From contig JBBHKE010000720.1 of NCBI GenBank assembly GCA_037447655.1, forward strand, positions 62,001-126,000: a DNA stretch of 64,000 nucleotides, read 5' to 3'. Below the pieces are notes generated by a model. It had not been told where the DNA came from. It ran no database searches and was given only the letters and a program-made list of their open reading frames with translations. A program made the position numbers and the translations under genes. Positions 2,321-64,000 of this stretch are shown in pieces; positions within the stretch are counted from its first letter, which is position 1, and every line of letters begins with the position of its first letter. The stretch comes from Zygnema cylindricum. Lineage: Eukaryota > Streptophyta > Zygnematophyceae > Zygnematales > Zygnemataceae.

Positions 2321-2458
2321 GACTGCAACTTGAACACGGCTTTGTCTGCAGCACGCCTCTGTTGGTCAACTCGCGTCTACCTATACAAACACATCCATCT
2401 CCTTCTCATCCACACTGCCCCCTCTTCGACCCCTCTCTCCCCCCCCCATCAGAACGCC

Positions 2459-6500: not shown

Positions 6501-9500
6501 AAAAAACTATACAGTTTTCTATACAAATAGTATGATTACTTCACCAGTAACGCCAGTTACAAGGCCCGCATTATTCCCCTATAGCTGAAAGCAAGGAAAC
6601 TGTGGCGTTATGACTCTGCGATGTAACCTATATCTTAAACTTCACTGGTTTTTGCAGAATGCAGGACTTGCCCCGCCACCTGTCTCCCATACGCCAGGTG
6701 GCATGCCCCCAGCCCCCACAATCCTGCCCGGTCCCATGCAGCCTCCCCAGCCACAGACGCCCTCGGTCTCGCGCATTGACCCCAATCAGATTCCACGCCC
6801 GCAAACGCCCTCCGCCGCCCGGCCCTTCGAGACCAGAGTGGACGGAGCAGCAAATCTTCCACCGGTGAGGAAATAAAGCGACAGGGAGAGAGGGAGAGAG
6901 TGGAGAGAGGAGAGGGGAGAGTGGAGAGGGAGAGATTGGGAGCGGGAGAGGGAGGAGGAGAGGGAGAGGGAGGAGGAGAGGGAGAGGGAGGAGAGGGAGA
7001 GCGAGAGAGCGACAAGCAGATGTGAAGAGGGAGAGAGAGACAGACAGAAAGGGAAAAGAGGGAGAGGGAGGGCGGATGAGGCATGGCGAAAATATTGCAG
7101 ACGGACATATAGAGAAATATACACAGGAATAGATAGTTAAAGGCAGAGACCGTGACAGTGACATGCTGACAGCTGCCGCAATAGCGACAGGGAGGCAGAT
7201 AGACAGCAGAACACAGAGACAGACATAAATCTTGGGGGGCATACAAACAGAAAAAGACGGAGGGAAGAAGCAAAAGTTAGGTAGACATGTGAAGTACTCT
7301 AATAAGGTCAAAAACGGAATCCTATCAACAATGTGTACAGGTTAATTATACAGAACCTCATGCGTATGTCCATCGTTTGGAGACTTAATAAACCAAGGGT
7401 TCCATCTTAATAGAACCAGGGGCCGTACCTATTAGAACTAAATATGTAGATGTCAAATACTGATGATAAAGGATTGGAGCTTCGACTTTGTTTTGACTCT
7501 TATACGCCAAGACCTTGCCAATGAAATCCACGTTAGTTTAGTGAGTCAAACAAGGGACAAAGTTTTCAGTCAGCTCATTTCAGGCGGTTTAGTACCTGGG
7601 AATTGAGAAGTATTTGGAATTTAGAGTCGCATATTGAGGCTAGAAAGCAATATCCGATACAGGGTCAAAATGATCTTGATATTTTATTATTCAAAAATGT
7701 GATACTTTAGATAAATATTGAAAATGCTAGGTTACAGAAGTACAACATCGACCACAATCTCGCTGAATCATAGCATTTCCTTTGAATTCGGTTATAATGT
7801 TCACAAGCCAATTTTCTGCAGATAAATACCGGAAATGTATGATATGGAAAAAAATGGAATGTAGTGTATGAAATATACATGCAACGGAATGGAGGGAGGG
7901 GAGGGAGGGTGGAGGCAGGGAAAGGAAACTTCTAATGGAGCCAACCAGCACCACTCAGATGGGCGACAAGGAACGAAAACAGAAAACGGAATTGAAGTGG
8001 GACTGAACTGAAAGAAATTTAGACAGGCAACAGAAAGGAGAGCGTTGGAATTTGAGAATTGGTTTCCATACAGACAGAGGCCAAGCTTTTGGCCTGCAAA
8101 AATAGAGAAGAGAAAGGCATTGAGCAAGAGAAGGGAGGAATAAAAGAAATGGACATGAAAGATGGATGAAGGGAGAGAGACACAACGGAGGGAGTGAGGA
8201 GAGAGAGGAGATAGAGGGAGGGAGAGACAGAGCGACAGATGGAGAGGCGGGAGGGGAGGCTGGGAGAGAGGGGAGTAGCAGAAGGTCCTGTTTTGTCGTT
8301 TGAGTCAAAGGGATGTATTTTCCCGCAGAACCCACCTGATGAAGGACAGTTGTCGAGTTGTAAAGTGGTATTGTCATAAAGTCCAGAGTTCTCAACACTC
8401 AGTTGCTAATTAGGAAAGGAGAAAAACGCTGACTCAGCTTCAGGCTGTCCATGGATCAGAGACAGGCTGGAAGGCCCTATACCCTATTGGACTCCAATGG
8501 AATTACTGCTGCGAGATTGATGATGTCAGAGGGTGTGTCTTGTTGTCCCTTTTGACTGACCTGTCCGTCTCCTTTTAGGGTTCAAAACAGTCTGACTCAA
8601 GTAGGTTCTGAGTCTTCAAGTCCAAGGAGGTTTGCGTCGACTAGTGTAGGTCTCAATTAGGTTCTTATTATTATTTCGAGGTTTCACTCGAATAGCCTCC
8701 GAGATTTCTACTGGGTGTCTTCAACCAGAAGTGAGAGACTGAAAGGATGAATTTGAACCCAGTAAGTTAAGGTTTCTTGTTTTGACTATGAACTAAGGGT
8801 TGCAATTGTGGGTTTTTTTTTTTTCTTGTCTTTTTGGGAGATTTCAGCCTGCAACAACACAGTTTGTGGTGAAGGATACCGGAAACTGCAGTCCACGGTT
8901 TATGCGATCCACGCTAAATCAGGTGCTTCCGGGAAACTTTCTGCGATCAGAATTTTGGGGCAAACCTTTTGAAAATGTAACCTCATTGCGGTGGTAAAGA
9001 GAATGAATATCCATGGTGTGCTTGCAGTGGGCTCCCTTAGAGAAGGAAAAATATATATAAGTGCTCATATAGAGAAGACCTTCAAGGCTATTCCGAGACA
9101 TAATAGCCTATAACCTATCATGACCCCCCTTTTTTTTTTCTTTTGCATCGATGGCGATTTACTGTGTAGTATTTGCTAGATTGTTTCGAGTAATTGTTTC
9201 CGGCTCCTCATGTGGTTGTCCTGTTGGTACTTTATTATATTCCTGGGCGGTTTCGGTAGTCCCACACTAGTTTGTGTACAGGTTTTGTGTCGCCATTTTT
9301 GACCTAAGCTTTCTCGCCATTAGTGTGAACCACAAATTGTATTTGTAGGCATTAGGTCTGGTCCAGCGGGGATAAACAAAAGTATTGGAAATATCTCTGA
9401 TTTTGGAACACTAAAATATAAATCTGGGTATACTTTTATCTTAGACTCAATAGTCACCCAATGTGTGACTTTCAACCAGAATTGCCCAGCATTTAGCTGT

Positions 9501-12500
9501 ATTCAAACCTTCGTCCTGACATTGAATATCTGTACAAATTTTCGTTTGAGGTTGAACTTTCTACTCACATTTATAGTCTTCGGGTCCATGGAACTATGTT
9601 CTGTTCAGGGGTTGTTTGGCAAAAAATAAAGTCGGTGGTCTTTGGTCGAGTTCATTTCACACTCACAGCTGTCTAATGAATATTCTTTATCAAAGATTGT
9701 TTGTAGAGAATTTCTGGCAGGACTTATGCATTGAAGTAGAAAACTTAAAATCTAGCGGTATGTTTGACCCTTGCGAAAAGACATGAGTATCAGTGGGTAC
9801 TCAAATGAATTCGCTACCTCATGATGAAGTACAACTACGTCGTCTTTCTAACTTGAAACGAGATGGTTGTGGTTTAGGCGGACTGTTATATTACTGACTA
9901 TTCGTTGCCATTACCATTTTGCTGATCATTACCATATGGCATATGACATTGCCATTACCATATTGCCATTAACATTGCCATATTGCTGACGATACATTGA
10001 CTTCAGAGCAAACACATTGCGGTGTTAGTTCCTGCAGAAGCTTTTTGCAAATTTATTGAATCTTGTTATCTTTAATTGATGTTCCTTGTTTTCAGAAAAT
10101 GGGCGATCAAATGATTGTTGTTACTGCTAACAGCGATCAGCACTGAATGTGTTTATTTGTCATGTTTATGTGGAATCTTTCTATGATGGTTTCTCATATC
10201 AAACAGTGAGAGTTTTTTTTGTTGTGTTGTAGTTTTTGCATCAGCGTGAAAATGCCTTGTCTTCTAAACTGATGCCACGTTGTAATATATTTTCAACGGA
10301 GGGTGCAGATTCCTTGTTCCGGGGATCTGTTAAGCACATCTTCCATGCCATTTGCTCTTATGGTCCAACCAATGGCTCTTCAAGATCCCTCAGAGGAACC
10401 TATTCAGGTGAGGTGGAAAAAAAAAGGGGCAATAAATGGGGAAAAAGGGGAAAAAGGGGGCAAAAGCGAGGAAGTACACGAGACTATTCAGATGAGGGAG
10501 GAAACAGAAAAGGAAATTCTGTCAATGGGAAATTGAAAAGGTCAATGCAGTGGGACTAGCTCTATTTTATGCAAGAGTTGAATTGTCTTTGTCTGATTGT
10601 TTGGAAAAAAATGTTGAATTATTGTAGAATTGAAGTTAAGGTGCAAAACTGAGTTAAGTTGAACCGAGGAAGGTAAAGTTAAATGTATTTGTGCTTGTTT
10701 TTCTGGCAGGTGGTGGATTTCAAGGAATCTGGGCCAGTCAGATGTGCTCGTTGCAAAGCTTATATTAATGCTTTTATGAAATTTGTGGACCAAGGACGAC
10801 GATTTATTTGCAATCTGTGCGGTATGTAACATGCATTCTTTATGGAGTGCCGGTTTCTTCAAATAAATCTTTGTAAATTACTAGTGATTCGAGTCAAGAA
10901 ATGATCAGTCTGGAGTTTATGTTAGTATTATCAATTCTAATTTAGTTTCGAATGATGTGGCTGAACTGATAAAAGAACAATCGTTAAGAATAAAACAATT
11001 AGTGCTGTTGATACTATTTTAGGTTCGAGGGGTAAATTTAGGGGCACCGATATAATGTCAATAAAATAATGTCAGCTGGGCTGTAATGGTTTTTTTCTAC
11101 AACACTCACTTTTTCCAAGCTGTAGAGAAGTCTAATGGTTTCTCTGTGCATTATCGACTATTTAAACAATCAGCTGCCTTCATGTTTTGTCAAGAATGTC
11201 TTTTTAAAACTTTTTTAATTCCGGTATGAGCTGTAAAAAAAACTGTTAGGTGTTGCATTCGCAAGTTATTAGCAAGTTTTATAAACCTTTTTTCCTGACA
11301 GTGCGAAGTTTATCATCCATTGTAGGCTCTTTCGAATCCGTATTTTATTGCAGTTTATTGCTGGGTCTTGAAAAGGAATCTTCACATAAAGTTCTGTTTT
11401 TTGTCGTGGAAAGGGAGTAACATTTTTTGTTAGGGATTTTGAGTGTTCAGTAGACTTTATGACTCGGTAATGAATTGTAAAACTGAGGGGTAGAGTTCGA
11501 CATTCTTTCAATGCCCTGTCTATCGTACTTTTTTTAATCATAGGGTTTTTTCTGAGCCTTATTTTCTTCTGGACTGAAATTGTTAAGAAATGAAAGACCC
11601 CTATTGTTGTGTGAAACATTTCCTTATGCTGGGAAAGGGAAGTTTAATATGTATATTTAGGTTTTCTCTAACTTTTTATTGGATTTAATTGCTGGGAAAT
11701 GGAAAACAGCTTTTACAAATGAGACTCCTCGAGATTATTTATGCAACTTAGGCCCGGATGGGCGGAGAAGAGATGCCGATGAAAGACCAGAACTTTCCCG
11801 AGGGACAGTGGAATTTGTGGCACCAAATGACTACATGGTAAGGTTTAGCTCTCCAATTTACAAGATACATTCGATATTGTCTACACTTGATTTGTTTGGT
11901 TGCTAGGTGTTTTTATCGTATTAAGCACTTGCAGAGAAAATATATCTTTTCTGTTTGAGATTTACATAGAATTTGACAACTTTTCAGCGCCCTACATTTT
12001 CTACTACTTCACCGCCCATCGCGATTAGAGTTAATAACACTAATTCGACCGCGACTTTTTTTGACCGAACGATAACGGTATTTAATGTAGTGGACTATAA
12101 TCAGCCACGTCTCCCTACACTAAATTAGTACTATACCTTTCGCATTTACACTAATAATTCCTTTAATAGCAATGGGTACTACAGTGGTCTTAACTTGCAT
12201 TCTTAACAGTGGTCTTAAAACTTTCCATCGAGGGTTGATATAGCATTTATGTGTTAAACATTCACTCTGTAAATTTCTGCTTTCCAATAATAGCACAGTA
12301 GTACCTGCCTATATGGAGACTAGATGAGATCAGGCAAGATCCTCATTAGCTCACATGTCATATGTATAGGAGGTCTACTGTTCTTTCTTAATAAGACTTT
12401 TACTTTTACTTTTTACAAGGATAACTGCAGTCACATTAGAAGTATTGAACAGTATATGAACAAGTATTTTTTTTGGCTTCTTTCTCTTGTGTCACAGCCT

Positions 12501-15500
12501 TGTAGGTTTAAGCAGTCCATGTTAATCAGTCTGGATGACACTATTTTTGAATTGAGTCTATTTGACGGTTTTAGTGAAATCAAGCAGCAGATTGGATCTG
12601 GGTACTTGGTATGAAAATCACTCATGAAACAATGCGGATACTGAAACCATGCTAGTAAAAAACTTGCCAATGAAGTCCATACTACTTACAGTGAGCAGTG
12701 TAATGGAGTATGCATGCAGCCTACTAACAATGCGGAGGAAGATCAACTGAAATGGCAATTCCATTTTTTAGCCTTTTGCATTGGAAACATGCTATTTAAT
12801 TTGAATTTCTTAACTCAACCATATTTTTGAAAGCCTTTTTTTATGAAGACTTAATTTCTATGCTTACTATATGTAAGCCAAACCAGATTGATCATCCTTC
12901 TAACCTTCTGCCTTCTCCTTCTCCTTCTACTCTCCTCGTCCTCCTCCTCCTCTCTCACCCTCACCCTCACCCTCACCCTCCTCCTCCTCCTCCTCCTCCT
13001 CCTCCTGCTCTCCTCCTCTTTCTCCCCTGCCCCTTTACAGGTTCGGGAACCCATGCCCGCGGTGTTTTTCTTTCTAGTGGACGTGTCCGTGAATGCGGTG
13101 GCCACCGGAGCCACAGCAGCAGCTTGCAGTGCCATTCAGCGAGTGTTAAGCGAACTTCCGGTCAGTGAAAAGAAAAACAAAACATCTGCCACAATGGTTC
13201 GAGAAATTTTAAAAGGACATTGTGATTCTCATCTCGAGCGTAGTTATCAGCCTTGTTTATTTCACTTAGAGCAATTCAGCGAGTGTCCTATGGACTTTAG
13301 TTCAGCACATAAAACACAGCAGAAGCATTAGTTTACCAAGGTTGAAAGCGGCAAAGACGGTTTAAGACACTCTGATTTCCTTCTACCAGAAGTACCGGTA
13401 TTGTTATTCCCTATTTTTGTGGTGCTTGTGGAGGATGATGGTTACAGTATTTGATGTGTTTCTGTTGCTGTCTTTGGTTCAAATTCCTTTTTTTTTTCTT
13501 GAACTGGTCATGGTTTTGCAAAAACCCAGGAAACCCTAATGGATCGGAAAACCTAAGACCCTTTTGAACTCGTTTGAAAGTTTCAGAAATTTGGAAAGCT
13601 CCTGAAAAACGTAAACAAACACTTATGTGTCCGACAATAAGGAGAAGAATTCACATATTTTTTTTCACATGCTGTTTCTTTGTTGTTTGGGAGGAGAGGG
13701 CTACAGGCAGGTGACAGGACTTATGTTGGGTTTGCCACTTATAACTCCACTATTCAGTTTTATAGCCTCAATCCTCGCCTTCAACAGGTAAATCGCTTGA
13801 TTTTGTTTAAAAACAAATTTGAAAATGATTGTTCCCAATCGCTTTTATTGAACAGTTTAAGACAAAAATAAACATTGTTTGTCTGGGAGTTATTGTTTTC
13901 TATCGCTTATATTGGACAGAGAAGCAAAACAGACTAGTTGTCGCCTTTGGAAATCGCATCTGATGGGGGAAGTAAAATTTACTCATGGGAAGAAGTCTAC
14001 AGTATTTCTATGTTGTAATGTGTGTTTTTGGCATGAGACTAAGGTTCTGGAAGTCTTGGCAAGGAAACTGTCGGTTTTAATGTTGAAACTGATTTGTTTT
14101 GTAAATACTTGTTGTCGTTTTTGCTCTCTGTACCTCCCTCCCCTCCACACCTTTTGTTTTTTCAGCCTACCATGTTGGTTGTACCCGATGTTCAAGATGT
14201 GTACACTCCCCTCCCATCAGATCTGGTGGTGAAATTATCGGAGGTGAGAGAGAAAGAGTAACAAACTCTGATATTCAATAAATTGGTACCATTTTCATAT
14301 TAATAGCCCTGAAGTTCTTTAAAATATCCTCAATGACGCCTAAAAAACCTGAAAGACGTTCTCTGCATCTGTATGTGTATTTGTAAAGCCGTATGAAAAA
14401 TTGTGGATTGTATGATGTGAAGATAAACGTCTATTTCAAAACTTACCCCTTTTTGTTTGAGAAGTCTTTGGGGTGTTTGAAAATCCGCCCTAAGTTCTAG
14501 TGTTGAGATCTTTTGGGTGTATTTGTCTTTATTCCCTTTTAATCAACCTCTTTCTTTTCCTTTTGTGTGACCTGATCCCCTTATGTAGTCCTTTTTTATC
14601 GCATATTTTGTTGATTCTTAGCTCTTTGTACTGTATTCTTCCCTCATGTTTTCGTCTTTTTTTGTCTTTCAGATGTTCTCTCAACAAGTCCATCTTGAAC
14701 CCTAAAGAACCCTTGTTGACTATCATTCTCCGTAGGATTCGTAATCGTCCATTGTTTATTATGATAGTTCCATTGTGTCTTTCGTCTTTTCCCGTTTTTT
14801 ACCGAGTTTTTTGGTCTTACAGGCAAAAGAGAGACTTGAGCAGTTAGTGGAGAGTATCCCCACAATGTTTCAAAATGTTCGTGTCGCAGATTCTGCATTT
14901 GGAGCAGCTTTGAAGGTAAATTATCTTCTCTCGCTCTCCCTCTCTCTTTTTCTCGTTTTCTCTTTTCTTCTCATTCACTTTCTCTTCTTCCCTTTTTCTC
15001 ACTTCCTCTCTTTTTCTCTCGCCGCTTCTCTTTCTCTCTCTCTTCTTCTCTTTCTCTTTCATTTCTTCTCTTTCTCTCTCTTTTTCTCTTCTCTCTCTTC
15101 TTTCCTTTTTTTCTTTTCACTTTCTCCCCTTTCCCTTCATTTTCTCTCTCCTCTTCCCTTTTACTCTGTTCTCTCTCGCTCTCTTCTCTTTTCTCCCTCT
15201 TTCTTCTTCTCTTTCTCTCTTCTCTATCTCTCTTTCTTCTCTCTCCCTCTCTTTTCTTCTCTTTCTCTCTCTCCTCTTTCTCTCTTTCATTCTCTTTCTC
15301 TTTTTCTTTCCTTCTCTTTCTCTCTCCTCTCTTTTTCTTTCTATTCTTTCTTTGTCTTTGCTTCTCTCTGCCTCTCTCTTTTTCTCTTTCTCTCTCTCTC
15401 TGCTCTTTTTTTTTCTATCCTTTCTCTTAGATTGAAATCATCTTAGAAAACTCTGAGAGGAAACTGCAAAATTTTATCTAGTGTTCAAGGGCTGTGTTAA

Positions 15501-42938: not shown

Positions 42939-43774
42939 TGTTGTAATTTAAAAAGCTATATCCTCAGTAGATAGAGCTATGAGGGGAGAAATAACACTTA
43001 GAATATTTTTGGAAATGTTAAATATAATACTTACCTTGAATAGTGTGATAGTAAAGTATTACTCTAAGAGTATTCTGTACGGTCTTATGAGACACGCGTT
43101 GGCATTTGAGACAAACGCAAGAAATACGGAATGGTCCCGTACACATGGCGCCTATCGAACAAGTAAATTTGGCAAATCAGGCGGACACGAAATGAACCGG
43201 ACACCTGGGAACACAATTGTGAAGAGTAAACGTCGCACATCAATCTCTATCATGCTGACGGTTGACATTTCAGTGGGGACCACAGGTGACGAGATGTACC
43301 GTAAGTTTTTCAAATATTCGTACTAGTTTTCAATAACAGGTTGAACATATTATACACTTCTTGACTCAGCAAGCAACATTATGAATACGGCTCCAGATTA
43401 GGAAAACTTGACGAAACATTTATCTGTAGCGAGGTGTATTATAAGATAGTGTTTCACTGTTTAGTTTATAGGCTACTTACAATTAGGTTTTTGGAAATAC
43501 ATTAGCGTATCTTGTCGTACTACAGTACAGTACCACTATTCCAGGTGTAGTCATCTGATTGGTCAGTGAGCAGTAGATACTCACTCGGTGTATAAAGTTT
43601 TAGGACTTAGAATTATTTTGCATTCAGTTTTGAGATATTGGGAATTTAAAAGGCAGTTTTTGGGAAACTTGAAGGTATTATATCTTATGGTTAACTGAGT
43701 ACATTTGTTTGTAACTTTGGGAGTTTTACATTGTGTATGGTGATTATCTTGTTTGCGGAATTCTGAGTAGATTT
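42939..43774 (+). mobile_element. Family A (Copia) LTR, 5' copy, interrupted by the TRIM
   Basis: Matches 53136-54051 over nearly its whole length, starting TGTTGT and sharing blocks such as TTTTTGGAAATGTTA, ACACTTCTTGACTCA and GTTTCACTGTTTAGTTTATA. The match breaks off shortly before the LTR end because the TRIM is inserted at 43775. The remaining end and leader resume at 48646 with AATTTGACC and TGTGAGTCAG. The 3' copy carries an extra 74-bp tandem duplication near its end. Confidence 0.8.
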
Positions 43775-44001
43775 TGTTGGATTGGCACGTGAAGCCGGTC
43801 CAATACGGGGTAGAATATGGAATATTCATACTCGAGCCACCCGTAATAAATGGGTACGGACCCGCCAATCTCTACATCGAGCTGATGGCAGAGTGGTAGT
43901 GCGTTCGTAGCTGAAGTGAAAGGTCTCAGGATTGAACCCTGGCCGGCTCAATTTTTCAAAGTGTGGGACATGCCGAATTTGGATTTCTAGGAAATCTAAC
44001 A
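43775..44001 (+). repeat. TRIM LTR1
   Basis: Complete 227-bp LTR with TG...CA ends and a short terminal inverted repeat (TGTTGGATT / AATCTAACA, one mismatch). It contains the tRNA-like sequence at 43879-43949. Confidence 0.85.
43879..43949 (+). other. tRNA-like sequence with A and B boxes inside TRIM LTR1
   Basis: The 71-nt segment folds like a tRNA on paper. The acceptor stem GAGCTGA pairs with CCGGCTC at the other end (six pairs if G-U is allowed). A perfect A-box type TGGCAGAGTGG follows in the D-arm. A five-pair anticodon-type stem (TTCGT/GTGAA, wobbles included) has a loop AGCTGAA. The T-arm carries GGATTGAACCC. In LTR2 the B box is closer to consensus (AGTTCGAACCC). The base before the would-be anticodon is G, not the usual U, so it is unlikely to be a working tRNA. 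A tRNA-derived Pol III promoter is the inferred role. Confidence 0.65.
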
Positions 44002-44017
44002 TGGTATTGGAGCCAGC
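44002..44017 (+). promoter_or_regulatory. TRIM primer-binding site (tRNA-iMet type)
   Basis: TGGTATTGGAGCCA starts at the first base after LTR1 and differs from the common plant initiator-Met primer site TGGTATCAGAGCC at two positions. Confidence 0.75.
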
Positions 44018-44058
44018 GGGATTGCGGATGGTTTGACCGGCTTTCTCGTGAGGGGGGG

Positions 44059-44187
44059 TGTTAGATTGGCACGTGAAGCAGGTCCAATACAGGGTAGAAT
44101 ATGGAATATCCATATTCGAGCCGCCCGTAATAAATGGGTACAGACCCACCAGTCTCTACATCGAGCTGATGGCACAGTGGTAGTGCG
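44059..44187 (+). repeat. TRIM LTR2, left part
   Basis: Begins TGTTAGATTGGCACGTGAAG right after the G-run polypurine tract. It matches LTR1 up to the GTGCG at 44183-44187, inside the tRNA-like region, where family G element G1 is inserted. Confidence 0.85.
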
Positions 44188-45380
44188 TGTCAAAATTTAA
44201 GTATTTTCTAGGTCTAGAGATTGTAAAATAAAAAGGCAAAAAGGGGACACTGACAACCTACCTCTAACTCTTCACTCAAGTCCCCACACTTGTCGCAGTC
44301 ACTGAAGACTTGAAGAGGAGGTTAGATCCATGGCTGCCTAGGCTGTCCAAAGTGGACAGGAAGACAATTCTTAATAGAGTTATCTAAAATGTGCGACGGA
44401 CCCAGGATTTGATCCTGGTACCTGCCGTCCGTCAAACTAGCCGTTCGCTTTAACCAACAAGTCTCAATACAGTGCTAGAGTACAATAGGTTTGACAAATA
44501 TTTATATTTTTACACGTAGACTAGTTCGTCTAATGGGAATAGATACGTAATGCATAGATACAGTTTTGTATAGTACGGAGTACGATTTAATGTATTTTAT
44601 GAAACGGATACCGCGCATTTTTTTCGAACGCGAAATAAATATCGCACGTATATTTTCAACGGCTACAATTGTATCCGGTTTGATCGGACGGCCACGATAG
44701 GCGCCGCGATCACGGATTATGTACTTTTGGCGTTTTTCAGTCATCGCCACATCATGTGACACGTGGCGCGACAATGTTGGATTGCGGCGACTCCGGAGAT
44801 TGCGGTAACAAATCCGGTTATGACACGTGTCGACATTTTGGCCATGTTGTAGAATGGCCGTACAGAAAGTACACCGGCACCTATACTTTTATGTACGACA
44901 CACTAATTTGATTGGTGCCGTACTTCAGTAGATACAGTTTTAGAGAGGGAATAGGACTTAGAAAATTTTGGGTAAGTAGTTGCCTCTCCTTGAGAGCACC
45001 TTGTATAAATGGCAAACTTTGGCCAGCCATAACTATCAATTTACTTGACCATTTTCAGTGATTTTTTTTGCTCCGGACTCAGGGGAGTCCAAGCTACACA
45101 AGGGTGTAGTCGGTCAGAGTTTTTGTCTGCGATGGTGGCGATATTTCTAAGGGAAAGTCAAAGTGGGTGAATGTGTCCAAATCTCATATTCTAACTTTGC
45201 ATTCTGTGGTGGAACTGACCACACAGAAAGTGTTATTTCACAGGGGTGAATCTATATTTGGGTTTTGATTGTCAAAGGGTCAGTCATTTGGGTTTATATC
45301 AACTTGGAGTCGGCACTATCTAGATAAGCTTCTTTTTGGATCTGCTTACTCTGAGGGCCAATGGAGGTCTCAGAGTTTCA
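44188..45380 (+). repeat. G1 5' LTR
   Basis: TG...CA bounded and matched to 47351-48541 with few substitutions. It contains an antisense tRNA-like module (44395-44468) and a TATAAATGG element at about 45004 before GGCCAGCCATAAC, which probably sets the transcription start. The gag-like open frame begins at an ATG (45361) inside the LTR end. Confidence 0.88.
44395..44468 (-). other. Antisense tRNA-like module in the G1 5' LTR
   Basis: On the minus strand, TTGTTGGTTAAAGCGAACGG resembles a tRNA D-arm. A perfect five-pair T-arm CCAGG...CCTGG encloses the loop ATCAAAT, so the B-box-like word is GGATCAAATCC. The anticodon and acceptor stems are not convincing. The same module occurs in the 3' LTR near 47565-47625, in the solo LTR at 35607-35672 and, in the opposite genomic orientation, at about 63950-64000. 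Confidence 0.55.
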
Positions 45381-46724
45381 GGTTATGGGCCCACCATCTA
45401 GGGTGCCTATGTTTGATGGGACACGCTTCACTTATTGGGCGTTTACAATGGAGGGATTGCTTATCGAGAAGCACTTATGGGGAATTGTTGCGGGACAAGT
45501 GAGATGTCCGCCACCTGGCTTTGGAGGAGCTTACTATGGAGATTCATCTGAGGCTGCCCAAAATATCAACCGGAGTTCAAATGCAGCGGAAGGTGAAGGG
45601 AAAAAGCTTTGCGTGGATGGGGAAATAGGGGAGAAGGAAAAAGTGACACCTATGGTGAGGGTAGGCTCTCAGCTATGGTACAACATGTAGGAATTAAAAC
45701 TGAAGAAAATGACAGAAAAATATGGGAATACAAAAACAATATAGGAAAACATCTCATACTTAGATATGTGTCTAAGTCGATAGCTATCACTCTTTTATGT
45801 CTAACCAAGTCTTCAGAGATATGGGAAGCACTAATTCAGATTTATAAGAGTGAGACTATCCAGAGACAGCAATTAGTAAAACAGGAAATAGAGGCCTACG
45901 TTTATATAGGCGGTAGCACGATAAAGATTTGCAATGATATTGCTGCGTTATATGTTGAGCTTACTAGTGCGGGATATGTAGAATCTGAGGAGAGTAAGAT
46001 TAATACATTACTTATGAAACTCCCAAATGAGTACGAAAACATCATTTGTCGTATGCAGGCAATGGATGGCTCCTCATGGACTAGAAGCTTTACCATGGGG
46101 ATAATTTTTGTGAGGGAAAGCACTTTGGAGCTTCGTAGGGGAAGAGACAAGGTCATTGCATTTTCAGCTGGTGGTGATTGGCGGAAGCGTGATGAGAGGA
46201 ACGGCGGTGACGAGCAGAAGCGTGACGAGAGGAACGGTGGTGACGAGCGGAAGCGTGATGAGAGGAACGGTGGTGACGAGCGGAAGCGTGATGAGAGAAA
46301 GAAAAACAAAGGTAAACCTTATCGGAACTTTGGTGGAAAGAGAGGGAGAGGAAAAGAAAGTGGAGCTTTGAAAAAGGGGGTTTGCTTCTTTTGTAGGGAA
46401 CCGGGTTATTATATGGAGGAATGCCCTTGTTTGGAAAAACTTAGAAGTTGGAATGTGGATAATGAGGAAGAAGGGGAAGAGGAGAAAGAGGATGAAGATA
46501 TTTTAGAGCTTCTCCGGATTAGTAGTATGTGGAAGAGAGAAAAGCACACAAAAATTCCACGAAAGCAACAGTGTGCTTTTGGAGGTATAAGGGAAGTAAA
46601 GAGAGAGGAGATACTTGAGGGAGTTCAAAATATTGATGATAGTTTCATACATATTTTGGAAACAGAAGACTGGTCGGAAAGGGAGACTTCAACAGATTCT
46701 GAGGAAAGGGGAGAATTAATTTAG
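45361..46724 (+). CDS. Gag of G1, frame-shifted, with an 11-residue repeat and zinc knuckle
   Basis: Open frame 45361-45690 reads MFDGTRFTYWAFTMEGLL, the usual Copia gag opening. The second frame, 45609-46724, carries the rest, including KTEENDRKIWEYKNNIGK, SSEIWEALIQIYK and KINTLLMKLPNEYENI. The two frames overlap and differ by one base step, either a mutation or a programmed shift. At about 46190-46290 an 11-residue unit (KRDERNGGDER) repeats four times. The nucleocapsid knuckle at 46383-46424 is CFFCREPGYYMEEC, where the zinc-binding His is Tyr. A Glu-rich stretch and an acidic tail follow, to the stop at 46724. No aspartic protease motif is present. Confidence 0.75.
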
Positions 46725-46909
46725 AGGGGGTTTTAAAGGATAGGGGAAAAGGGAAATATTTGATTAAAGGTTTAGGGGAGAAAAAATATTTATTGGGAAT
46801 TAAAATAGAAAGTGATAGTGGAAAGAATTCCGTGGGAGAGAGTGAGGGAAGTTCAGAAAATGGGGTAATTATCATGGATGAAAATATGAGTACGTAAGAT
46901 GTAGATCTT

Positions 46910-47160
46910 ATGAAGAACTTAGTGGGGACTAGTGTTTTTTGGGAATATTTGGGGGTGGATGGATTTGACATCACTACTTGGTGTGATGTCGCTTGTGAAG
47001 ATGTGCCTGTAAAAGGGTTATCATCCGGATATGTGTTGCAAGTTGGGGATAGGGCTGACTGTTGGAAATGCAAAAGGGAAAGTAAATTCTGGTTGGATAA
47101 AAAGGGGAGAAGGTGGATAAAATCTTTGATCAGATTTATGATAAGTGGCATGCAAAATAA
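46910..47160 (+). pseudogene. RNase H relic in G1
   Basis: TWCDVACEDVPVKGLSSGYV lines up with TWSDVSYGDVPSRRSTTRYV of the minus-strand Copia RNase H at 57.6-58.1 kb. It is the only trace of pol in the element, which suggests that an internal deletion removed the protease-to-RT region. Confidence 0.65.
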
Positions 47161-47266
47161 AATGTATGATCAACAAGATGAAATTATTTTTGGTCATCTA
47201 ATACACTTTCTTAAATATAAAAGTATTCGCTTGAAGCTTCATGAAGGAAAAATGAAAAATGAAAGG

Positions 47267-47307
<41 letters not shown>

Positions 47308-47350
47308 TTTGATGGGAGTTGAAAGTAAGTAGACTAGAAAATAAGGGGAG

Positions 47351-48541
47351 TGTTGAAATTTAAGTATTATCTAGGTCTAGAGATTGTAAAATAAAAAGGC
47401 AAAAAGGGGACACTGACAACCTACCTCTAACTCTTCACTCAAGTCCCCACACTTTTCGCAGTCATTGAAGACTTGAAGAGGAGTTAGATCCATGGCTGCC
47501 TAGGCTGTCCAAAGTGGACACGAAGGCAATTCTTAATACAGTTATCTAAAGGTGCGACGGACCCAGGATTTGATCCTGTACCTGCCGTCCGTCAAACTAG
47601 CCGTTCGCTTTAACCAACAAGTCTAAATACAGTGCTAGAGTACAATAGGTTTGACAAATATTTATATTTTTACACGTAGACTAGTTCGTCTAACGGAAAT
47701 AGATACGTAATGCATAGATACAGTTTTGTATAGTACGGAGTACGATTTAATGTATTTTATGAAACGGATACCGCGCATTTCTTTCGAACGCGAAACAAAT
47801 ATCGCACGTATATTTTCAACGGCTACAATTGTATTCGGTTTGATCGGACGGCCACGATAAGCGCCGCGATCACGGATTATCTACTTTTGGCGTTTTTCAG
47901 TCATCGCCACATCATGTGACACGTGGCGCGACAATGTTGGATTGCGGCGACTCCGGAGATTGCGGTAACAAATCCGGTTATGACACGTGTCGACATTTTG
48001 GCCATGTTGTAGAATGGCCGTACAGAAAGTACACCGGCACCTATACTTTTATGTACGACACACTAATTTGATTGGTGTCGTACTTCAGTAGATACAATTT
48101 TAGAGAGGGAATAGGACTTAGAAAATTTTGGGTAAGTAGTTGCCTCTCCGAGAGAGCACCTTATATAAATGGCAAACTTTGGCCAGCCATAACTATCAAT
48201 TTACTTGACCATTTTCAGTGATTCTTTTTGCTGCGGACTCAGGGGAGTCCACGCTACACAAGGGTGTAGTCGGTCAGAGTTTTTGTCTGCCAGGGTGGCG
48301 ATATTTCTAAGGGAAAGTCAAAGTGGGTGAATGTGTCCAAACCTCATATTCTAACTTTGCATTCTGTGGTGGAACTGACCACACAGAAAGTGTTATTTCA
48401 AAAGGGTGAATCTATATTTGGGTTCTGATTGTCAAAGGGTCAGTCATTTGGGTTTATATCAACTTGGAGTCGGCAATATCTAGATAAGCTTCTTTTCAGG
48501 ATCTGCTTACTCTGAGGGCCAATGGAGGTCTCAGAGTTTCA
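47351..48541 (+). repeat. G1 3' LTR
   Basis: Starts TGTTGAAATTTAAGTATT after the polypurine tract and ends GAGTTTCA. A near-identical copy of 44188-45380. The tRNA-like module lies near 47565-47625 on the minus strand. Confidence 0.88.
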
Positions 48542-48546
48542 GTGCG

Positions 48547-48645
48547 TTCGCAGCTGACGTGAAAGGTCCCAAGTTCGAACCCTGGCCAGCTCAATTTTCC
48601 CAAGTGTGGGATATGCCGAATCCTGGATTTCTAGGAAACCTAACA
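48547..48645 (+). repeat. TRIM LTR2, right part
   Basis: Resumes LTR1 similarity exactly after the duplicated GTGCG at 48542-48546. It carries the anticodon arm, the B box AGTTCGAACCC and the acceptor half CCAGCTC (48586-48592), then ends CCTAACA. Confidence 0.85.
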
Positions 48646-49749
48646 AATTTGACCTGTGAGTCAGTTTTTATAGTGTGATAAAGATCAGTGTTTGATATGA
48701 TTTCTTGTTAGCTTCTGCTGAAGTATGTCTACTTCTACAACTAATGTTGCAGCTCCACCTGCACCAGTTGTCATAGAACAACAAGTTATGGGCTTGTCTC
48801 CAAAATTCTTGTCTTTAATGGCCAGAAGTATGCTTACTGGGTAGATATGGTCGAGTATTATTTTGAAACTGCAGGCTTATTTTAGATTTTGGATGGATCA
48901 CTTGATGAAGCTGATCTGACTTGGGTGAAAAAGAAATTGTAGGCTCGGAACACTCTAAAATTGTGTCTCTCGGAGAATATGGTTATATCGAGAATCAATA
49001 TGAAGAAAGAGATTGACATCTGGAAATCGCTAAAAGCGTCTTATAAAAAAGCGAATGTTCAAAAAGAACTTGTGTTGGCAGAAAAAAATCTGGACCTACA
49101 AATACTCGGGGGAACAATGGCCAATTATACAGATAACTTTCGAGCTCTCATTGACTCTTATGCTTGTGTTGGTGGGAGTTTTCCCGAGTTTCAGCAAGCT
49201 GCTCTGATTATTAGAGGTCTTCTAAGCAGTATGAAAGATGCGTGTGCTGAATTGAAAAAACATGATAAGGCTAACTGGACTCTTCAACTAGCTATCAATA
49301 TTATCTTAGAAAAAGTGTCTACGTCAAAGATGCTTAATGGAGAAAAAGCAGGTAGAAGCTTTTAACACAGACTATGACAAAAAAGATCAGTTTAATCCGT
49401 AGAGGAATCAGTTTAATCAGCAAAAAAATTAGTTTAACCAAAACCGGGGTCAGTTTAAACAGTTTAATCAAGGGCAGAATAGTAGATTTTCACTGTTTGT
49501 TTTTATTGTTCAGAAAAGGGTCATGGATATAGGTATTGTCCTAAGCTCAAAAAAGGCAAATGAAACATGTTTATATAGGCCAGGATGGCAGCAAAGTCAG
49601 TTTAATCGGAGCTTTTCTGGTAATCAGCAACAAAACAACTCTTTGCTTTCTTCATCTGTAATTCACGAGGATGAGTCTATAACTTCAATGAGCATGATGA
49701 TTCAGAGTTATTTGCAATGGCGACAGCAATGGAAGGCTCAAAGGACACA

Positions 49750-49858
49750 GGTTGGATCATGGAAACTGGGGAATCGACCCACATGTGTTGGAACAAATGA
49801 CTCTTTACAAATCTCAAGTCCACACTTGCAAGGAAAATCTACTATGCATGTGGCATGA
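49750..49858 (+). pseudogene. A1 protease remnant with altered active site
   Basis: Reads GWIMETGESTHMCWN, where the family has a DSG or DTG triad start in the same context. The catalytic Asp is Glu, so this copy should be inactive as an aspartic protease. Confidence 0.7.
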
Positions 49859-52459
49859 GTGTTCAAACTTCTGCTCAAGGTGATGTGTCTTTGCTGGTAG
49901 ATATAGGAGGAAAGTCAGTTGAAAGGACTCTTCACAATGACTTATATGTACCGGATTTCAAAAAGAGTATATTTTCTACTTCTCTAGTTGAGAGCAAAGG
50001 ATTTGAGGTCAGCCTTAAGGGCGGTTTGCAGGTTGTAAGCAGGCTGAGGAAGGTGGCAGTCACATGAACTAGATATGCAAGCAAAATGTATCGTATAGAT
50101 ATGGCTAATACAAAAAAAAACGATTTTCTGTACTTCAGTGTTGATTCTGAAAATGGGTTGTGGTATAAAAGACTAGGTCATGTTCACTATGACAGCTTGC
50201 AGAAAATGGTTAATTCTGGTAAAATAGATGGATTTTCTCTTACTAATCAGCTAGTTAAAACATGTGATGACTGCTCACTAGGAAAGATTCACAAGTTACC
50301 TTTTCCTCAAGAATCGGAACATCTGTCTGCAAAAGTTTTGCAGCTTTTATTCTCTGATGTTTTGGGACCAACTTAGGTGCCATCTACTGGGGGGGTCAGG
50401 TTTATGGTGACGTTTATAGATAATTTCTCAGGTTCAAGAAGGTGTATTTCACGAAAGAATAGAGTGAAGTGTTTGGCCACTTCAAACACTACAAGGCTTG
50501 GGCGGAAAAACTGCATAATGCTCCGAATTGGAGCTCAGATCGGACAATGGAGGAGAGTACATATCAAAAGAGTTTGACAAATTTTTTCTGGATGAGGGTA
50601 TCAGTCGCCAGCTCACGGTCGCTTACACACCACAACAAAATGGCGTCTCAGAGAGACTAAATAGAAATATTGCAGAAAATGCTAGATCTATGTTAGCAGA
50701 AAAAAATGTTGATATAAAATTCTGGGCTGAAGCCCTCAATTGTGCAGTTTACATTAAAAATAGGATCGTTTCTTGGTTAGTTAGCACTACACCTTTTGAG
50801 ATATGGACAGGTAGATAACGAGATGATAGTCATTTCAGAGTATTCGGATGTAAATGCTTTATTTTGGACACTTCACCGAATCCTTGGAAATTTGAACCGA
50901 AAGGTTTGCCAGGTATTCTAGTTGGGTATGATGAAAATTCTAAGGGATATAGAGTATATGTTTTAGCCAAAAAAAGGATAGTAGTTTCTAGAAATATAAT
51001 TTTGAAAGATGAAAATGAATCTACAGATCGTTTTACATTGACAGAAAATCAGGTAGAAGATAAATCACAAGAATATGTTATATTTGACACTCAGAAGACT
51101 CTATATTTTCTTGCTATTCAACACCAGATTGCAAAAAAACTTTCTTCTGATCATCAGACGCCTGTTACAACTCACATGGAGCAAACTCAAGAGCTCCAAG
51201 ACGAAACAGAACATGTGACCAGACCAACTAAGAATGCGAGACATCCTTCGATCTCCGCCTCAGAATTTCCAAGGGGAAGGAGATCTAGCAGCCGCCTTCA
51301 ATCAAGTTCCCACTTTGCTTATTTTGCTAACCCGAGTTAACCTCAGGCTATTAAGGAAGCATTCTCCTCACGTGAAAGAAATCAGTGGATAGAGATGGCA
51401 AACGACGAAATAAAGTCAATAATGCAAGCTCAAACTTGGGAGCTGGTTGATCTCCCTTCATACCGGAAAGCCATCGGCAGCAAATAGGTATTCAAACGAA
51501 AGCTGAACGCGGATGGCACCATTGAAAGATACAAGGCCAAACTGGTGGCCAAAGGCTACAATCAGAAAGAAGGAATCGACTTTGAAGAGACCTCTCCAGT
51601 GGTAAGATTTTCTACTTTCAGGATTCTTTTAAGTTTAGCAGCATTTGAAAATATGGAAGTGCATCAAATGGATGTAAAAACAACTTTCTTTCCTGAAGAG
51701 CTGGAAGAAACTATTTATATGCAGCAACCAGAGATGTATGTAGAAAAAATTAATGAAAAACTAGTATGTAAAATGATGAAATCCTTGTATGGGATAAAAC
51801 AGGCCCTTAGACAGTGGAACCTAAAACATGATGAGTTCCTCACAAAATTAGGCTTTAAAATGATGAGTTCAGATCACTCTGTGTATTTTTGCAAGGGGAG
51901 GATGGTGTACTGTATATTGCTATGTATGTAGATGATTTGCTACTTATCAGCAAATCTATTGATGAAATAAATCGTATCAAAAGGGCTTTGAAGTTCAGAT
52001 TTGAGATGAAAGACCTCGGCGAGGCCAAATACATCTTAAGCATACAAGTAGAGAGAAACACAAATGGGAGACAGATCATGCTAACTTAAAAGGAGGCTAT
52101 AAGCTCAATGCTTGAAAAATTTGATATGAAAGAAGCTAAAAGGTGTGTCACTCTTATATAATACAGACAGAAGTTAGAGGGAGTTGATTCAGATTTTGGC
52201 ATTTTCGTGACGATAGTCTAAAGTCAAGGGAGGAAGAATTCATGGCCTCAAAACCATTTGGACAAGTAGTTGGCAGTCTCATCTATTTTATGAAGTGCAC
52301 GAGGCTGGTTGTGGCAGCTGCTGTTGGAGCTCTGAGTACGAGTCTGCAGAATAAAAAAAGGTTAGACTATCAAGCGACAAAGAGGGTTCTGAGGTATTTG
52401 GCAGGGACCCGGAATCTCAAACTTGTCCTCAAAAGAGGAGAAATACTTGTCGGCTAAGT

Positions 52460-52795
52460 CACTTGTGATACTCTTATGAATCTCGTCCGTTGACTAGATT
52501 CATATCAATCGCAGCTGCGTTGTCCCGTACCGGATCACATTTATATCACCCGCGGCTGCGGTGTCCTACACCAAATCATATCCAAGATAGTAGCAGCTGC
52601 GTTGTCTGTACGGATCTTATCCAAAGTGACCGCAGCTGCGTTTGTCTTGTCTGTATCGCAGCTTCGCTGCTGCGCTGCTCTGCTGCTGCGCAGCTCTGCT
52701 GTATAGCAGCTGCGCTGCTCTTCCGTATAGCAGCTGCGCTGCTGTCTGTATAGTTGCTGCGCTGCTGCGCTGCTCTGAGACTGAGAGCTTTCCAA
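52460..52795. repeat. GCAGCTGCG palindromic repeat array inside A1 RNase H
   Basis: At least eight occurrences of GCAGCTGC or GCTGCGCTGCTC-type words appear between the LKRGEI end of one RNase H block and the ELLWVKAILQELG start of the next. Spacing shrinks from about 50 bases to about 20 towards the right. It is GC-richer than its surroundings and replaces about 60 residues of RNase H. Confidence 0.8.
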
Positions 52796-53135
52796 AAGAC
52801 AACAAAGACATGGCAGCAAGTTTTGCTTAGAAGGAACTCCTATGGGTAAAGGCAATTTTGCAGGAACTGGGACACATGCAAACTGGTCCTCCACCATCTG
52901 GTGTGACAACCAGGTAGCTATTGCCATCGACTCCAATCCCAGCCACTAAGCACATGGATGTCAAACTGCATTTTGTCCTGGAAAAGGTGCTGGCAAAGGT
53001 CATCAAATTTTGTTATGTACGAGATGAAAACATGGTTGCAGACATGCTGACTCAAGCTCTACCTGCACCTAAATTACAGTTTTGCAGACAGGCTGTTGGA
53101 CTAAGTGAGTAACTGAGTCTAAAGCTTTAGGGGAG

Positions 53136-54051
53136 TGTTGTTTTTGAAAAAGCTTTATCCTCCATAGATAGAGCCGTAAAGGGAGAAATAACACTTAAAA
53201 TATTTTTGGAAATGTTAGATTTAATACTTATCTTGAATAGTGTGACAATAAATTATAACTCTAACAGTATTTTGTATGGTCTTATGAGACATGTGTCGGC
53301 ATTTCGGACAAACGCTGGAAATACAGAATGGTCTCATACTCATGGCGCATATCGAACAAGTAACTTCGGCAAATCGGGCGAACGGGAAATCAATCGGGCA
53401 TCTGGGAACACAATTGAGAAGAACAAACATCGGACATCAATCTCTATCAGGCTGACGGTTGAGATTTGAGTGGGGACCACAGGTGACGAGATGTACCGTA
53501 AGCAATTCAAATATTCGTACTAGTCTCCAGCGACAAGTTGGACAAATTATACACTTCTTGACTCAACAAGCAACATTATGAGTACGGCTCCAAATTAGGA
53601 AAACTTGACGAAACATATATATCTGTAGCGTAGTGTATTATAAAATAGTGTTTCACTGTTTAGTTTATAAGCTAGTTACAATTAAGTTTTTGGAAGTACA
53701 TTTGCGTACCTTGTCGTACTACAGTAGAGTACCACTATTCCAAGTGTAGTAATCTGATTGGTCTGTGAGCAGTAGATACTCACTCAAAATATTAAGTTTT
53801 GGGACTTAGGATTATTTTGTATTCAATTTTGGGATATTTGAAATCTAAAAGGCAGTTTTTGGGAAACTTGCAGGTCTTATATCTTATGGTTAACTAAGTG
53901 AATTTGTTTGTAACTTTGGGAATTTTATAGTGTGTATGGTGATTATCTTGAATGCTAAAATTTGGGTAAATTTGACATTGTCTGTAACTTTGGTAATTTT
54001 ACAGTGTGTATAGTGATTATCTTGAATGCTAAATTTTGGCTAAATTTGACA
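53136..54051 (+). mobile_element. Family A LTR shared between A1 and A2
   Basis: Starts TGTTGTTTTTGAAAAAGC after the A1 polypurine tract and ends TTGACA at about 54051, just before the A2 leader TGTGAGTCAG. It contains a 74-bp tandem duplication near the end (TGTAACTTTGG... at about 53911 and 53985). It is the 3' LTR of A1 and at the same time the 5' LTR of A2. Confidence 0.8.
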
Positions 54052-56285
54052 TGTGAGTCAGTTTTTACAGTGTGATAAAGATCATTATTTGATAGGATTT
54101 CTTGTTAGCCTCTGCTTAAGTATGTCTACTTCTACAACTACTGCTACAACACCACCTGCACCAGTTGTCATACGAAATAATACAACAGGTGTGTTGCGAC
54201 AAAGATGGTTCATCAGAAAAACCGAAATTTTGACAACCTCCAAAAACGTCAATTTTTTTTTCGGAGACAAATTAAAACGAGGAGGAAGTCGTCAATTTTT
54301 TCGAAGCATATGACAATGAACTATTCGCACTGAAGAACGCTAATGATTGAGATAGAGACTATGGGTGGATTATAGATACCAGTACGTCTGAACATATGTG
54401 TTAGAATAAAGCTTATTTTGACAATCTTCACCCAATATCTCCAAAAAAAAATTATCATGCGGACGGACGATTTAACATCTTTATTGCCAAAGGCGCGGCA
54501 ACACTCAAAGTTCTCATCGACGGTAAACAAGTTGAAAAAATACTCAATGATGTTCTCTATGTCCTTGACTTCCAAAAAAACTTTTCTCCACTTTGCTTGT
54601 AGAAAACAAAGGCATTGAAGTGTTTTATAAAACTGGAAAGCAATTAGTCGATAAACAAGGTAGAGTAGCAGTAGGAACATGAGGGCCAAATCTGATTTTT
54701 ATTCTTGATCTTGCCAATATAAATGATAAAGATGTTTTGTGTTCGGTTGTCCTATGTGACACTGATTTATGGCACGAAAGACTTGGTAATGTCTATTGTG
54801 AAAGTCTTGACAGAATGGTAAAACAAGGTATGATTACAAGTGTACAGATTAATAGTAACGAGGAACATTTTTGCGATGGATGCGCTCTCAAAAAGATTCA
54901 AAAAAATCATTTTTCTTTCGAAAGCAACCATAGAACAACTAATTGTTAGAATTAATTTATCTTCATTTATGGGGGCCGGCTCTGATATCATCACTTTGTG
55001 GAATAAGATACATGGTGACATTTACAAATGGCTTTTCTAGTCTCACAAAAATCCACTTTATGAGAGAGAAGAGTGAAGTATTTTCTCATGAATTCAAGGT
55101 GTGGAGCGAGTAAATTCCTAGGGTTGATATCTTAAAATTGAGACCAGACAATGGCGGGGAGTATTTATCACGGAACTTCATCATCTATCTGAAAGAAAAC
55201 GGATTTTTTCAATAGTTGACGGTCCCATATTCTCCAAAAAAGAATGGTGTAGTTGAAGAAGTAAACAGAACCCTAACGGATATTGCGCGTTCAATGCTAA
55301 CGGACAGAAATATAAATGCGAAATTATGGGCTGAAGCCATCAATTGTGCGACATACATTAAAAATAATATAGAATCAAGAGCAGTTAAAGGGAAAACGCT
55401 ATATAAATTATGGACGGGAACTAACCCGGAAGTGTCAGTTAAGAGTATTTCGAAGTAATGTTGTCATGTTTGATAATTCTCCAAATAAATGGAAAATGGA
55501 GCCAAAAGGTAAAGTTGGAACCTTACAAGGCTACGATGACCAATCAAAAGGGTACAAAGTATAATTACATGATAAAAATAAGATTTTTGTCACCAGAACT
55601 ATAAGAATAAATGATAAAGAGAAGTCAGTTGATGTTTTTTAAATGACCGCAGACAAAAAGGCTGAAAAAATTGCCAAATATGTGATTCTAGAATACAAAC
55701 TGTGGCAGACCTCGAGTATTTAAGAGACACCAAACACGTGCTGCGATAGAAATGTCCTATTGTTGAACCAACAACAAGATGGGGCTCGTCGGTGGCCCTT
55801 CAAGAGTGAGAGCTGGAGACATCAACACAACACGAAACAAAACTAGCCTGTCTTTAAACCAACGATGAATTCATCTAGTTGATGAACAAAAAATCGACAA
55901 AAATACACGAATTAGCGACAAAAAAACCATATCGTTAAACAAGGGAAGAGATCATGTTACGTGTGACTTACCAAATTGGAACACAGATGGATAGAGAGTC
56001 ACACTGAAACGAGTTGGTGCAAGGGTTCTATCAATTTCAACTCAAAATTTTCGGGGGAAGAAGAACAAGCGGTTGACCTAATGCAAGTGCAAACCATTAT
56101 GCGTTCACTGCAAATTCACAAGAGCCTCTTATTATTCAGCAAATGTTTTTTGTACCAGAAAAGGAACACTGGATAGCAGCAGCAAATGACGAAATAAAAT
56201 CAATTATGGAGGCACAAACGTGGCAACACATAAAACTTCTTTTGATCGTAAAGCAACTGGAGGCGGATGCTTGAATTAAAAGATA
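54052..56285 (+). pseudogene. Copia family A element A2, internal region, truncated
   Basis: The gag start at 54122 repeats the A1 opening (STSTTTATTPPAPVVI) but most of gag is missing. A protease remnant WIIDTSTSEHMC (DTG changed to DTS) follows near 54366, then LWHERLGNVYCESLD, CDGCALKKIQKNHF, an integrase piece RPDNGGEYLSRNF and KKNGVVEEVNRTLTD, and WKMEPKGKVGTLQGYDD. The end is IAAANDEIKSIMEAQTW, the first RT motif, after which it stops near 56285. Stops and frame changes are frequent. Confidence 0.8.
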
Positions 56286-63029: not shown

Positions 63030-64000
63030 TGAAACTCTGTGTGCTCCATTTCCCACAGAAATCACAGATCCAAAAGAATCTTATCTAGATAGTGCCGACT
63101 CCAAGTTGATATAAACCCAAATGAGTGACCCTTTGACAATCACAAACCCATTATAACTTCACCCCTGTGAAATAAGACTTTATGTGTGCTCAGTTCCACC
63201 ACAGAATGCAAAGTTAGAATATGAGTTTTTGACACATTCACCCACTCTGACTTTCCCTTAGAAATGCAGCCTCCCTAGCAAGCCAAAACTCTGACCGACT
63301 ACACCCCTGTGTAGCGTGGACTCCCTTGAGTCCGCCGCAAGAACAATCACTGAAAATGGTCAAGTAAATTGATAGATATTAATGGTCAAAGATGACCCTT
63401 TTGTAGAGGAGCTCTCTCGGAGAGAGGCTGCTACCTACTAAATTTTTCTAAGTCTTATCTCTCTCTAAAACTCTATCTACTGATGTACGGCACCAATCAA
63501 ATTACTGTGTCGTACTGAAAAGTACAGGTGTCGGTGTACTTTCTGTACGGCCATTGTACGACATGGCCAAAATGTCGACACATGTCATCTCCAGGTTCGT
63601 TCACGTAATCCCCGGAGATGCCGCGATCTAATGTCATTTTTGCACGTGTCATCCTATGTGGCGATGACCGCAAACAGCCAAAATCTTCTTCCGCGATCTC
63701 GGCATCCTTTCCAGCCGTCCGATCGAAACCAGGTTTTGATCGGTGCCGTCATAAATACGTGCGCGGTATTTGTTTCGTGTTCGAAACAAATGCGAGGTAT
63801 CCGTTTCATATAGTACATTAAAATCGTACAAAAATTGTATCTATGCATTACGTATCTATAATATGTTAAATGAACTAGTCTACGTGTAACGTAATAAATA
63901 TTTATCAAACCTAATACATCTTATCATTAATCCTAGACTTATAGGCTAAGGCTACCGGCTAATTTGACCGACGTCAGGTACCCGGATCAAATCCTGGGAC
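63030..64000 (-). mobile_element. Family G LTR, minus strand, cut by the window end
   Basis: The reverse complement matches 44188-45380: it starts here with TGAAACTCTG (the LTR end), then CAACTTGGAGTCGGCACTATC, CAGGGGTGTAGTCGGTCAGA and the tRNA-like module at about 63950-64000. About 220 bases of its 5' end lie beyond the window. No family G interior is seen at lower coordinates, so it is a 3' or solo LTR. Confidence 0.8.

Follow-up and report, generated by a model that had tools for sequence, protein, structure and literature searches.

The 64,000 nt of DNA analysed here (the window) come from the zygnematophycean alga Zygnema cylindricum (assembly GCA_037447655.1, contig JBBHKE010000720.1, positions 62,001–126,000, forward strand) and carry, at nt 43775–48645, a terminal-repeat retrotransposon in miniature (TRIM) with a tRNA-like module in each long terminal repeat (LTR). 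It belongs to F1, one of three TRIM families (F1, F2 and F3) of this genome in which the module is kept between otherwise diverged LTRs, which is what is new here. On balance, these are probably TRIMs of the Helenus type, that is, tRNA-bearing non-autonomous LTR retrotransposons, in which RNA polymerase III (Pol III) starts at the module, the module constitutes the repeat (R) region, and the cloverleaf is kept for reasons that lie at the RNA level.

Taken alone, the window module rises only modestly above chance. The combined score of its A and B boxes was reached by 21 of 1000 dinucleotide shuffles, ARAGORN reported no tRNA in the window, and a covariance-model search, which a sequence-only reading of this DNA had put forward as a check of its tRNA-like stretch, gave no Rfam tRNA match at E ≤ 10 (nt 43700–48700). 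The window TRIM is an old, decayed copy. Its genome (352.8 Mb, 2689 contigs), in which that reading had proposed a search for copies, has plenty of intact relatives. A search with the window TRIM gave at least 96 matches in 40 places, these being the best 40 of 840 candidates scored. In the 39 places other than the window, whole or partial LTR matches numbered two in 30, three in 4, four in 3 and five in 2, and tandem LTR-interior arrays are present among them. The interior measured 57 bp in 49 of 54 cases. Among the 37 places whose ends are full, the window being one of them, target duplications agreed at 5/5 bases in 28, at 4/5 in three and at fewer in six; seven of the places with at least three LTRs (L009, L014, L016, L023, L025, L036 and L043) have perfect ones. 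A strict pattern of boxes A and B occurred 214 times in the genome, while the reversed pattern did not occur, and ten places fetched from this list as variants all proved to be F1 LTRs, one of them partial. Although the window copy is weak by itself, these matches, the pattern hits and the Rfam scores of its relatives confirm the observation, and the family evidence makes it certain that the tRNA-like stretch is real.

The commonest F1 module, found in 51 of 89 LTRs, has a full cloverleaf as its minimum-energy fold (acceptor stem 7 bp, D stem 4 bp, anticodon and T stems 5 bp each), and one intact F2 module likewise folds into a cloverleaf. Intact F1 modules contain box A TGGCACAGTGG and box B GGTTCGAACCC with zero mismatches; for one copy (L010) the combined box score was reached by none of 1000 shuffles. 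Against a gathering score of 29, the Rfam tRNA model RF00005 gave 53.6 bits (E 7e-10) in five of seven F1 matches (L010, L014, L043) and 43.8–48.2 bits in the other two, 56.3 bits for both modules of an F2 element (L096) and 54.6 bits for both of an F3 element (L132); an F1-like variant (L137) had no match at gathering. The sense-orientation tRNA-like module with A and B boxes described in the sequence-only reading is thus borne out, above all by intact relatives (53.6–56.3 bits). ARAGORN named the F1 module tRNA-Gln(ctg) in all six places given, and found a tRNA in 16/20 places of one set and 16/17 of another; across intact modules its labels were tRNA-Gln, -Lys, -Glu or a tRNA with anticodon cta. 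In annotation, elements of this kind can therefore raise the number of tRNA genes counted. Position 33 of the anticodon loop is G where U is the rule in tRNAs, and decoding by the module is therefore unlikely. No progenitor was found among the 31 distinct tRNA sequences of the genome, which represent few isotypes: the best of them matched the F1 module at 51/72 positions, while between isotypes the median is 43 and the highest value 68.

All three families have two LTRs, a total length below 1000 bp and no coding capacity, as is diagnostic of TRIMs, with a primer-binding site (PBS) after the 5′ LTR and a polypurine tract (PPT) before the 3′ LTR. The layout (LTR + interior + LTR) is about 229 + 57 + 229 bp in F1, 222 + 66 + 222 bp in F2 and 229 + 57 + 229 bp in F3. 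F2 came from a pattern that excluded the upstream context of F1 and gave 540 hits at ≤2 mismatches, 75 of the 100 listed being without mismatch; of 20 places fetched, 17 were F2 and three F1-type. F2 elements have 5-bp target duplications of their own (L089, L091, L096, L107). A second exclusion pattern led to F3, some of the 20 places fetched being F1-like. Outside the module F3 resembles F1 (identical at 84/104 positions in U3, the LTR part before the module, and 47/51 in U5, the part after it), and within the module it has an extra T in the D loop and the anticodon stem CTGAC/GTCAG instead of TTCGC/GTGAA. Neither of two further candidates gave another family: the single hit to the same D arm with another anticodon arm proved to be a TRIM copy, and two hits with an altered box-A base plus box B were F3-like by sequence.

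Some copies depart from the standard layout. Module spacing is shortened from 286 bp to 243 bp in one F1 array (L078), where consecutive LTRs lack a full interior between them, and to 269 bp in another (L079). In an F1-type copy (L104) the PBS TGGTATCAGAGC joins the module directly, as if by a deletion at a shared GAGC. Bases 7–9 of the PBS vary among copies both within and between the three families (e.g., CGG, CAG, CAA, TTG).

Conservation of the module between families

The sequence-only reading suggested testing whether boxes A and B are more conserved than the rest of the LTR. Within F1 they are not: departure from the majority base across 88 LTRs was 1.31% in U3, 1.30% in the module and 1.14% in U5. 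Conservation inside F1 is uninformative because dead copies decay evenly, and the informative comparison is the one between families. There the boxes are more conserved than the rest for F1/F2 and F2/F3, with the non-box positions of the module doing as well as the boxes.

Comparing one real copy of F1 (L011) with one of F2 (L096), the module was identical at 69/72 positions, U3 at 53/95, U5 at 30/52 and the interior at 40/57. Set against the combined flanks (U3 + U5, 83/147 identical), the module is significantly more conserved (Fisher, p = 1.2e-10), and this is equally so of its 50 positions outside the boxes (p = 2.0e-9), of which 1/50 differs compared with 64/147 in U3 + U5. Fixed differences, computed over 157 LTRs that each cover 95% or more of a family member, gave the same picture for F1/F2 (module 2/70, U3 36/79, U5 27/53) and for F2/F3 (module 9/71, U3 38/78, U5 24/45). 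The module is thus strongly conserved between the families of these two pairs but not between F1 and F3, and its positions outside boxes A and B are as conserved as the boxes themselves. Families that share the conserved cloverleaf are otherwise 55–60% alike in their LTRs.

In the anticodon stem of F3 five bases are changed and every pair is kept, by two double compensatory pairs and one G-U to A-U change. Slid controls gave no double-changed pair, and with three families this covariation is suggestive rather than proof. The anticodon loop reads AGCTGAA in 94/109 F1 LTRs, AGCTTAA in 16/22 F2 LTRs (AGCTAAA in three) and AGCTCAA in 25/26 F3 LTRs, the base at position 36 depending on the family (G in F1, T in most of F2, C in F3).

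Proposed transcription and possible role of the fold

Pol III transcription is the obvious hypothesis for LTRs that bear such a module, and from the boxes and the signals beside the module we infer that these TRIMs use it. Exactly one run of four or more T (T4) occurs in 106/109 F1 and 25/26 F3 LTRs. Among the 99 F1 LTRs with a recognisable end motif (ten more were not scorable for position), 98 have such a run immediately behind the module, as do 25/26 of F3. Upstream, F2 has TATATAAA in 21/22 LTRs, 32 nt before the module, and AATAAA lies at the equivalent place in 91/109 F1 and 6/26 F3 LTRs. A short hairpin of differing sequence follows the module in one copy of each family.

The proposed transcript would begin where the module of the 5′ LTR begins, with boxes A and B directing Pol III and a TATA-like stretch about 30 nt upstream helping; it would pass through U5, the PBS, the interior and U3, and terminate just past the second module, that of the 3′ LTR, which in F1 and F3 means at T4. 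With such a start and end the module would be the R region, whose repetition would serve strand transfer. Most transcription would terminate at the first T4 and give a short tRNA-like RNA, and leaky termination there would yield the RNA fit for copying, with a Copia-type element providing the enzymes in trans. The cloverleaf is probably kept for more than its promoter, possibly for protection or processing of the RNA ends, export, or packaging. The persistence of the tRNA fold in three families whose LTRs have otherwise changed in large part suggests that the fold may itself have a function. More specifically, and held more tentatively, the tRNA-like RNA could be a selected, folded part of the element, an R-region tRNA mimic with a role in the life cycle beyond that of promoter; its presence as a whole in three families, the pair-preserving stem change and the AGCTNAA loop lacking U33 point in this direction.

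Several observations weigh against this scheme. Between F1 and F3 the fixed differences (module 8/73, U3 15/92, U5 3/42) leave the module no more conserved than its flanks. The covariation score of the F3 stem was reached by 17 of 500 shuffles on five sequences, which is modest. The terminator half of the proposal is not general, as T4 is lacking in all 22 F2 LTRs, and the TATATAAA motif of F2 would suit RNA polymerase II (Pol II) equally well. No autonomous partner was found in a search with the exact 22 bases adjoining the PBS, looser tests not having been run; five hits with a different next base were considered, of which four were TRIM copies and the fifth lay within an F1 array (L023). 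Lastly, the relationships conflict, being (F1,F3),F2 by LTR and (F1,F2),F3 by module, so exchange of modules between families could explain part of the conservation.

That last point underlies the best of the alternatives, in which template switching between elements, or a recent shared origin, makes the similarity of the modules a matter of recency and not of selection. The conflicting trees and the occurrence of the same short module in diverged LTRs agree with it. However, each family has its own fixed differences in the module, an argument against very recent exchange; the flanks and the PBS/PPT layout are homologous too and have diverged in place; and F3 retains the unusual AGCTNAA loop beside a rewritten stem. 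We regard exchange or recency as rather unlikely to be the main explanation.

It is somewhat less likely still that the module is kept for boxes A and B alone, with the cloverleaf as a leftover, which is how the sequence-only reading and Kojima 2024 (PMC10886601) understand such modules. The boxes are indeed perfect in intact copies, G at position 33 makes decoding improbable, and conservation around the boxes is described in that paper. A promoter-only role accounts poorly for the near-identity of the non-box positions of F1 and F2, and for stem changes in F3 that retain all pairs.

A Pol II element is similarly improbable. Here a TATA-box would set the start at about the same place, and the tRNA-like part would be a stretch of the Pol II transcript that folds. 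The upstream motif of F2 and the AATAAA or TATA-like stretch at the equivalent place in F1 would fit, but AATAAA is infrequent in F3, T4 lies immediately 3′ of the module in F1 and F3, and TATA, CAA and poly(T) motifs are reportedly used by plant tRNA genes too (going by the title of Yukawa 2000). Chance resemblance in the window copy, as its shuffle score and the empty Rfam and ARAGORN searches might suggest, is refuted by the family, with intact members far above the tRNA cut-off and 214 hits of the box pattern against none for its reversed form, and can practically be dismissed.

Returning to Helenus-type TRIMs with Pol III start and a retained fold, a comparison of three families can separate a promoter-only role from that of a structured RNA, and more than 200 box-perfect copies in one genome offer material for measuring whether Pol III is used, what the R region is and what the cloverleaf does.

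The window copy and its surroundings

The features of the window copy are listed in the table. The 227-bp LTR, 57-bp interior, PBS, PPT and lack of coding capacity given in the sequence-only reading all stand. Its module, described as 71 nt at nt 43879–43949, was correctly located but measures 72 nt (to nt 43950) when the discriminator base is included. The PBS resembles what we take to be the 3′ end of plant initiator tRNA-Met.

Table. Features of the window TRIM (family F1) and of the Copia element nested in it
Feature	Position (nt)	Strand	Remarks
5′ LTR	43775–44001	+	227 bp, TGTTGG...CTAACA
tRNA-like module, decayed, 5′ LTR	43879–43950	+	72 nt including discriminator base
Box A, 5′ LTR module	43886–43896	+	TGGCAGAGTGG
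Box B, 5′ LTR module, decayed	43929–43939	+	GGATTGAACCC; majority of copies GGTTCGAACCC
T5 run, possible Pol III terminator	43952–43956	+	sole run of ≥4 T in this LTR
Interior	44002–44058	+	57 bp, begins TGGTATTGGAGCCAG, ends GAGGGGGGG
PBS	44002–44016	+	
PPT	44050–44058	+	GAGGGGGGG
3′ LTR, first piece	44059–44187	+	
3′ LTR module, first part	44163–44187	+	25 nt
Nested Copia element, separate from the TRIM	44188–48541	+	LTRs 96.9% identical
gag-like open reading frame of nested Copia	45609–46724		matches PF14223
3′ LTR, second piece	48547–48645	+	
3′ LTR module, second part	48547–48593	+	47 nt

The window TRIM has its own target duplication (GATTT/AATTT, 4/5 match), and its 3′ LTR is interrupted inside the tRNA-like module by the nested Copia element, with the target duplication GTGCG. 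The TRIM in turn lies within a repeat pair of an older Copia, in which nt 42939–43774 match nt 53136–53973 (86.9% identical) and nt 48645–48775 match nt 54042–54172 (90.8%). The segment at nt 42939–54172 therefore consists of three nested elements, an old Copia containing the TRIM and a younger Copia in the 3′ LTR of the TRIM, and this order agrees with the divergence of the repeats of the old (86.9%) and young (96.9%) Copia. Compared with the present F1 majority, the window TRIM is altered at 23 positions in one LTR only and at three in both, so the TRIM was almost identical to today's F1 when it inserted, with little change in the source lineage from then on.

Most of the nested Copia LTR is found once more on the minus strand at nt 63030–63998 of the window, at about 80% identity. 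In the LTR of the nested Copia itself (nt 44396–44475, minus strand) two antisense stretches, TGGTTAAAGCG and GGATCAAATCC, look similar to boxes A and B; with no Rfam match at E ≤ 10, they were dropped as a candidate. A search with the gag open reading frame gave no scored relatives. Elsewhere in the window (nt 2362–15446), a proline-rich open reading frame and a downstream exon-like stretch resemble a Sec24-type gene. Outside the window, a uL4 gene close to a tRNA gene (L073) has 85% identity over 100% to a protein labelled Mesen1 (Mesotaenium endlicherianum); among the best 120 of 7994 matches, four more sequences reach 85–86%, followed by named ones from ferns, a liverwort and mosses at 81–82%, which makes a zygnematophycean host likely.

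Comparison with known systems

Short interspersed elements (SINEs) derived from tRNAs are likewise short and non-coding, with a tRNA-like head carrying boxes A and B. To our knowledge SINEs have no LTRs, PBS, PPT or target duplications fixed at 5 bp, all of which are present in the elements described here.

Cassandra, a plant TRIM, resembles them in having a small-RNA gene in each LTR and in forming tandem arrays, and differs in that this gene is 5S rRNA and not tRNA-like (PMC7215508, PMC10886601). Consistent with this difference, 5S rRNA gave no match at gathering in the window or in L096, L132 and L137, and none at E ≤ 1 in L010, L014 and L043. Cassandra has a Pol III promoter and terminator with start and end inside the small-RNA module (PMC7215508, PMC10886601), which is like the arrangement that we propose.

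The closest system is Helenus, and the suggestion of the sequence-only reading that a tRNA-bearing TRIM was undescribed has to be withdrawn. In the part of Kojima 2024 (PMC10886601) available to us, Helenus is the name given to TRIMs whose LTRs contain sequence derived from tRNA, with members in fungi, in animals and in a single plant; Pol III transcription is proposed, they are grouped with Cassandra and Ajax as TRIMp3, and they are thought to have arisen several times. By titles and abstract openings, no second report of such TRIMs was found. Defined in this way, F1, F2 and F3 are Helenus on their features. They share with it the TRIM structure, the tRNA-like sequence with boxes A and B in each LTR, the PBS and PPT, the 5-bp target duplications (reported for its plant and fungal families) and the tandem arrays (one zebrafish family). 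The tRNA model recognises the LTR sequence in copies of F1, F2 and F3, though not in the window copy or L137, and the boxes are more conserved than the rest of the LTR in two of the three family pairs, F1/F3 being the other. According to the same part of that paper, predicted Helenus structures mostly fail to support tRNA function, the potential to encode a tRNA being credited to seven families in bivalves and 15 in fungi, and the sole plant member reported is Helenus-1_SMo of Selaginella moellendorffii, with an LTR of 120 bp and an interior of 85 bp. What sets the Zygnema elements apart is the presence of three families with LTRs of 222–229 bp, interiors of 57–66 bp and the whole cloverleaf kept, and with them the plant record of tRNA-bearing TRIMs probably reaches beyond a lycophyte to include algae related to land plants.

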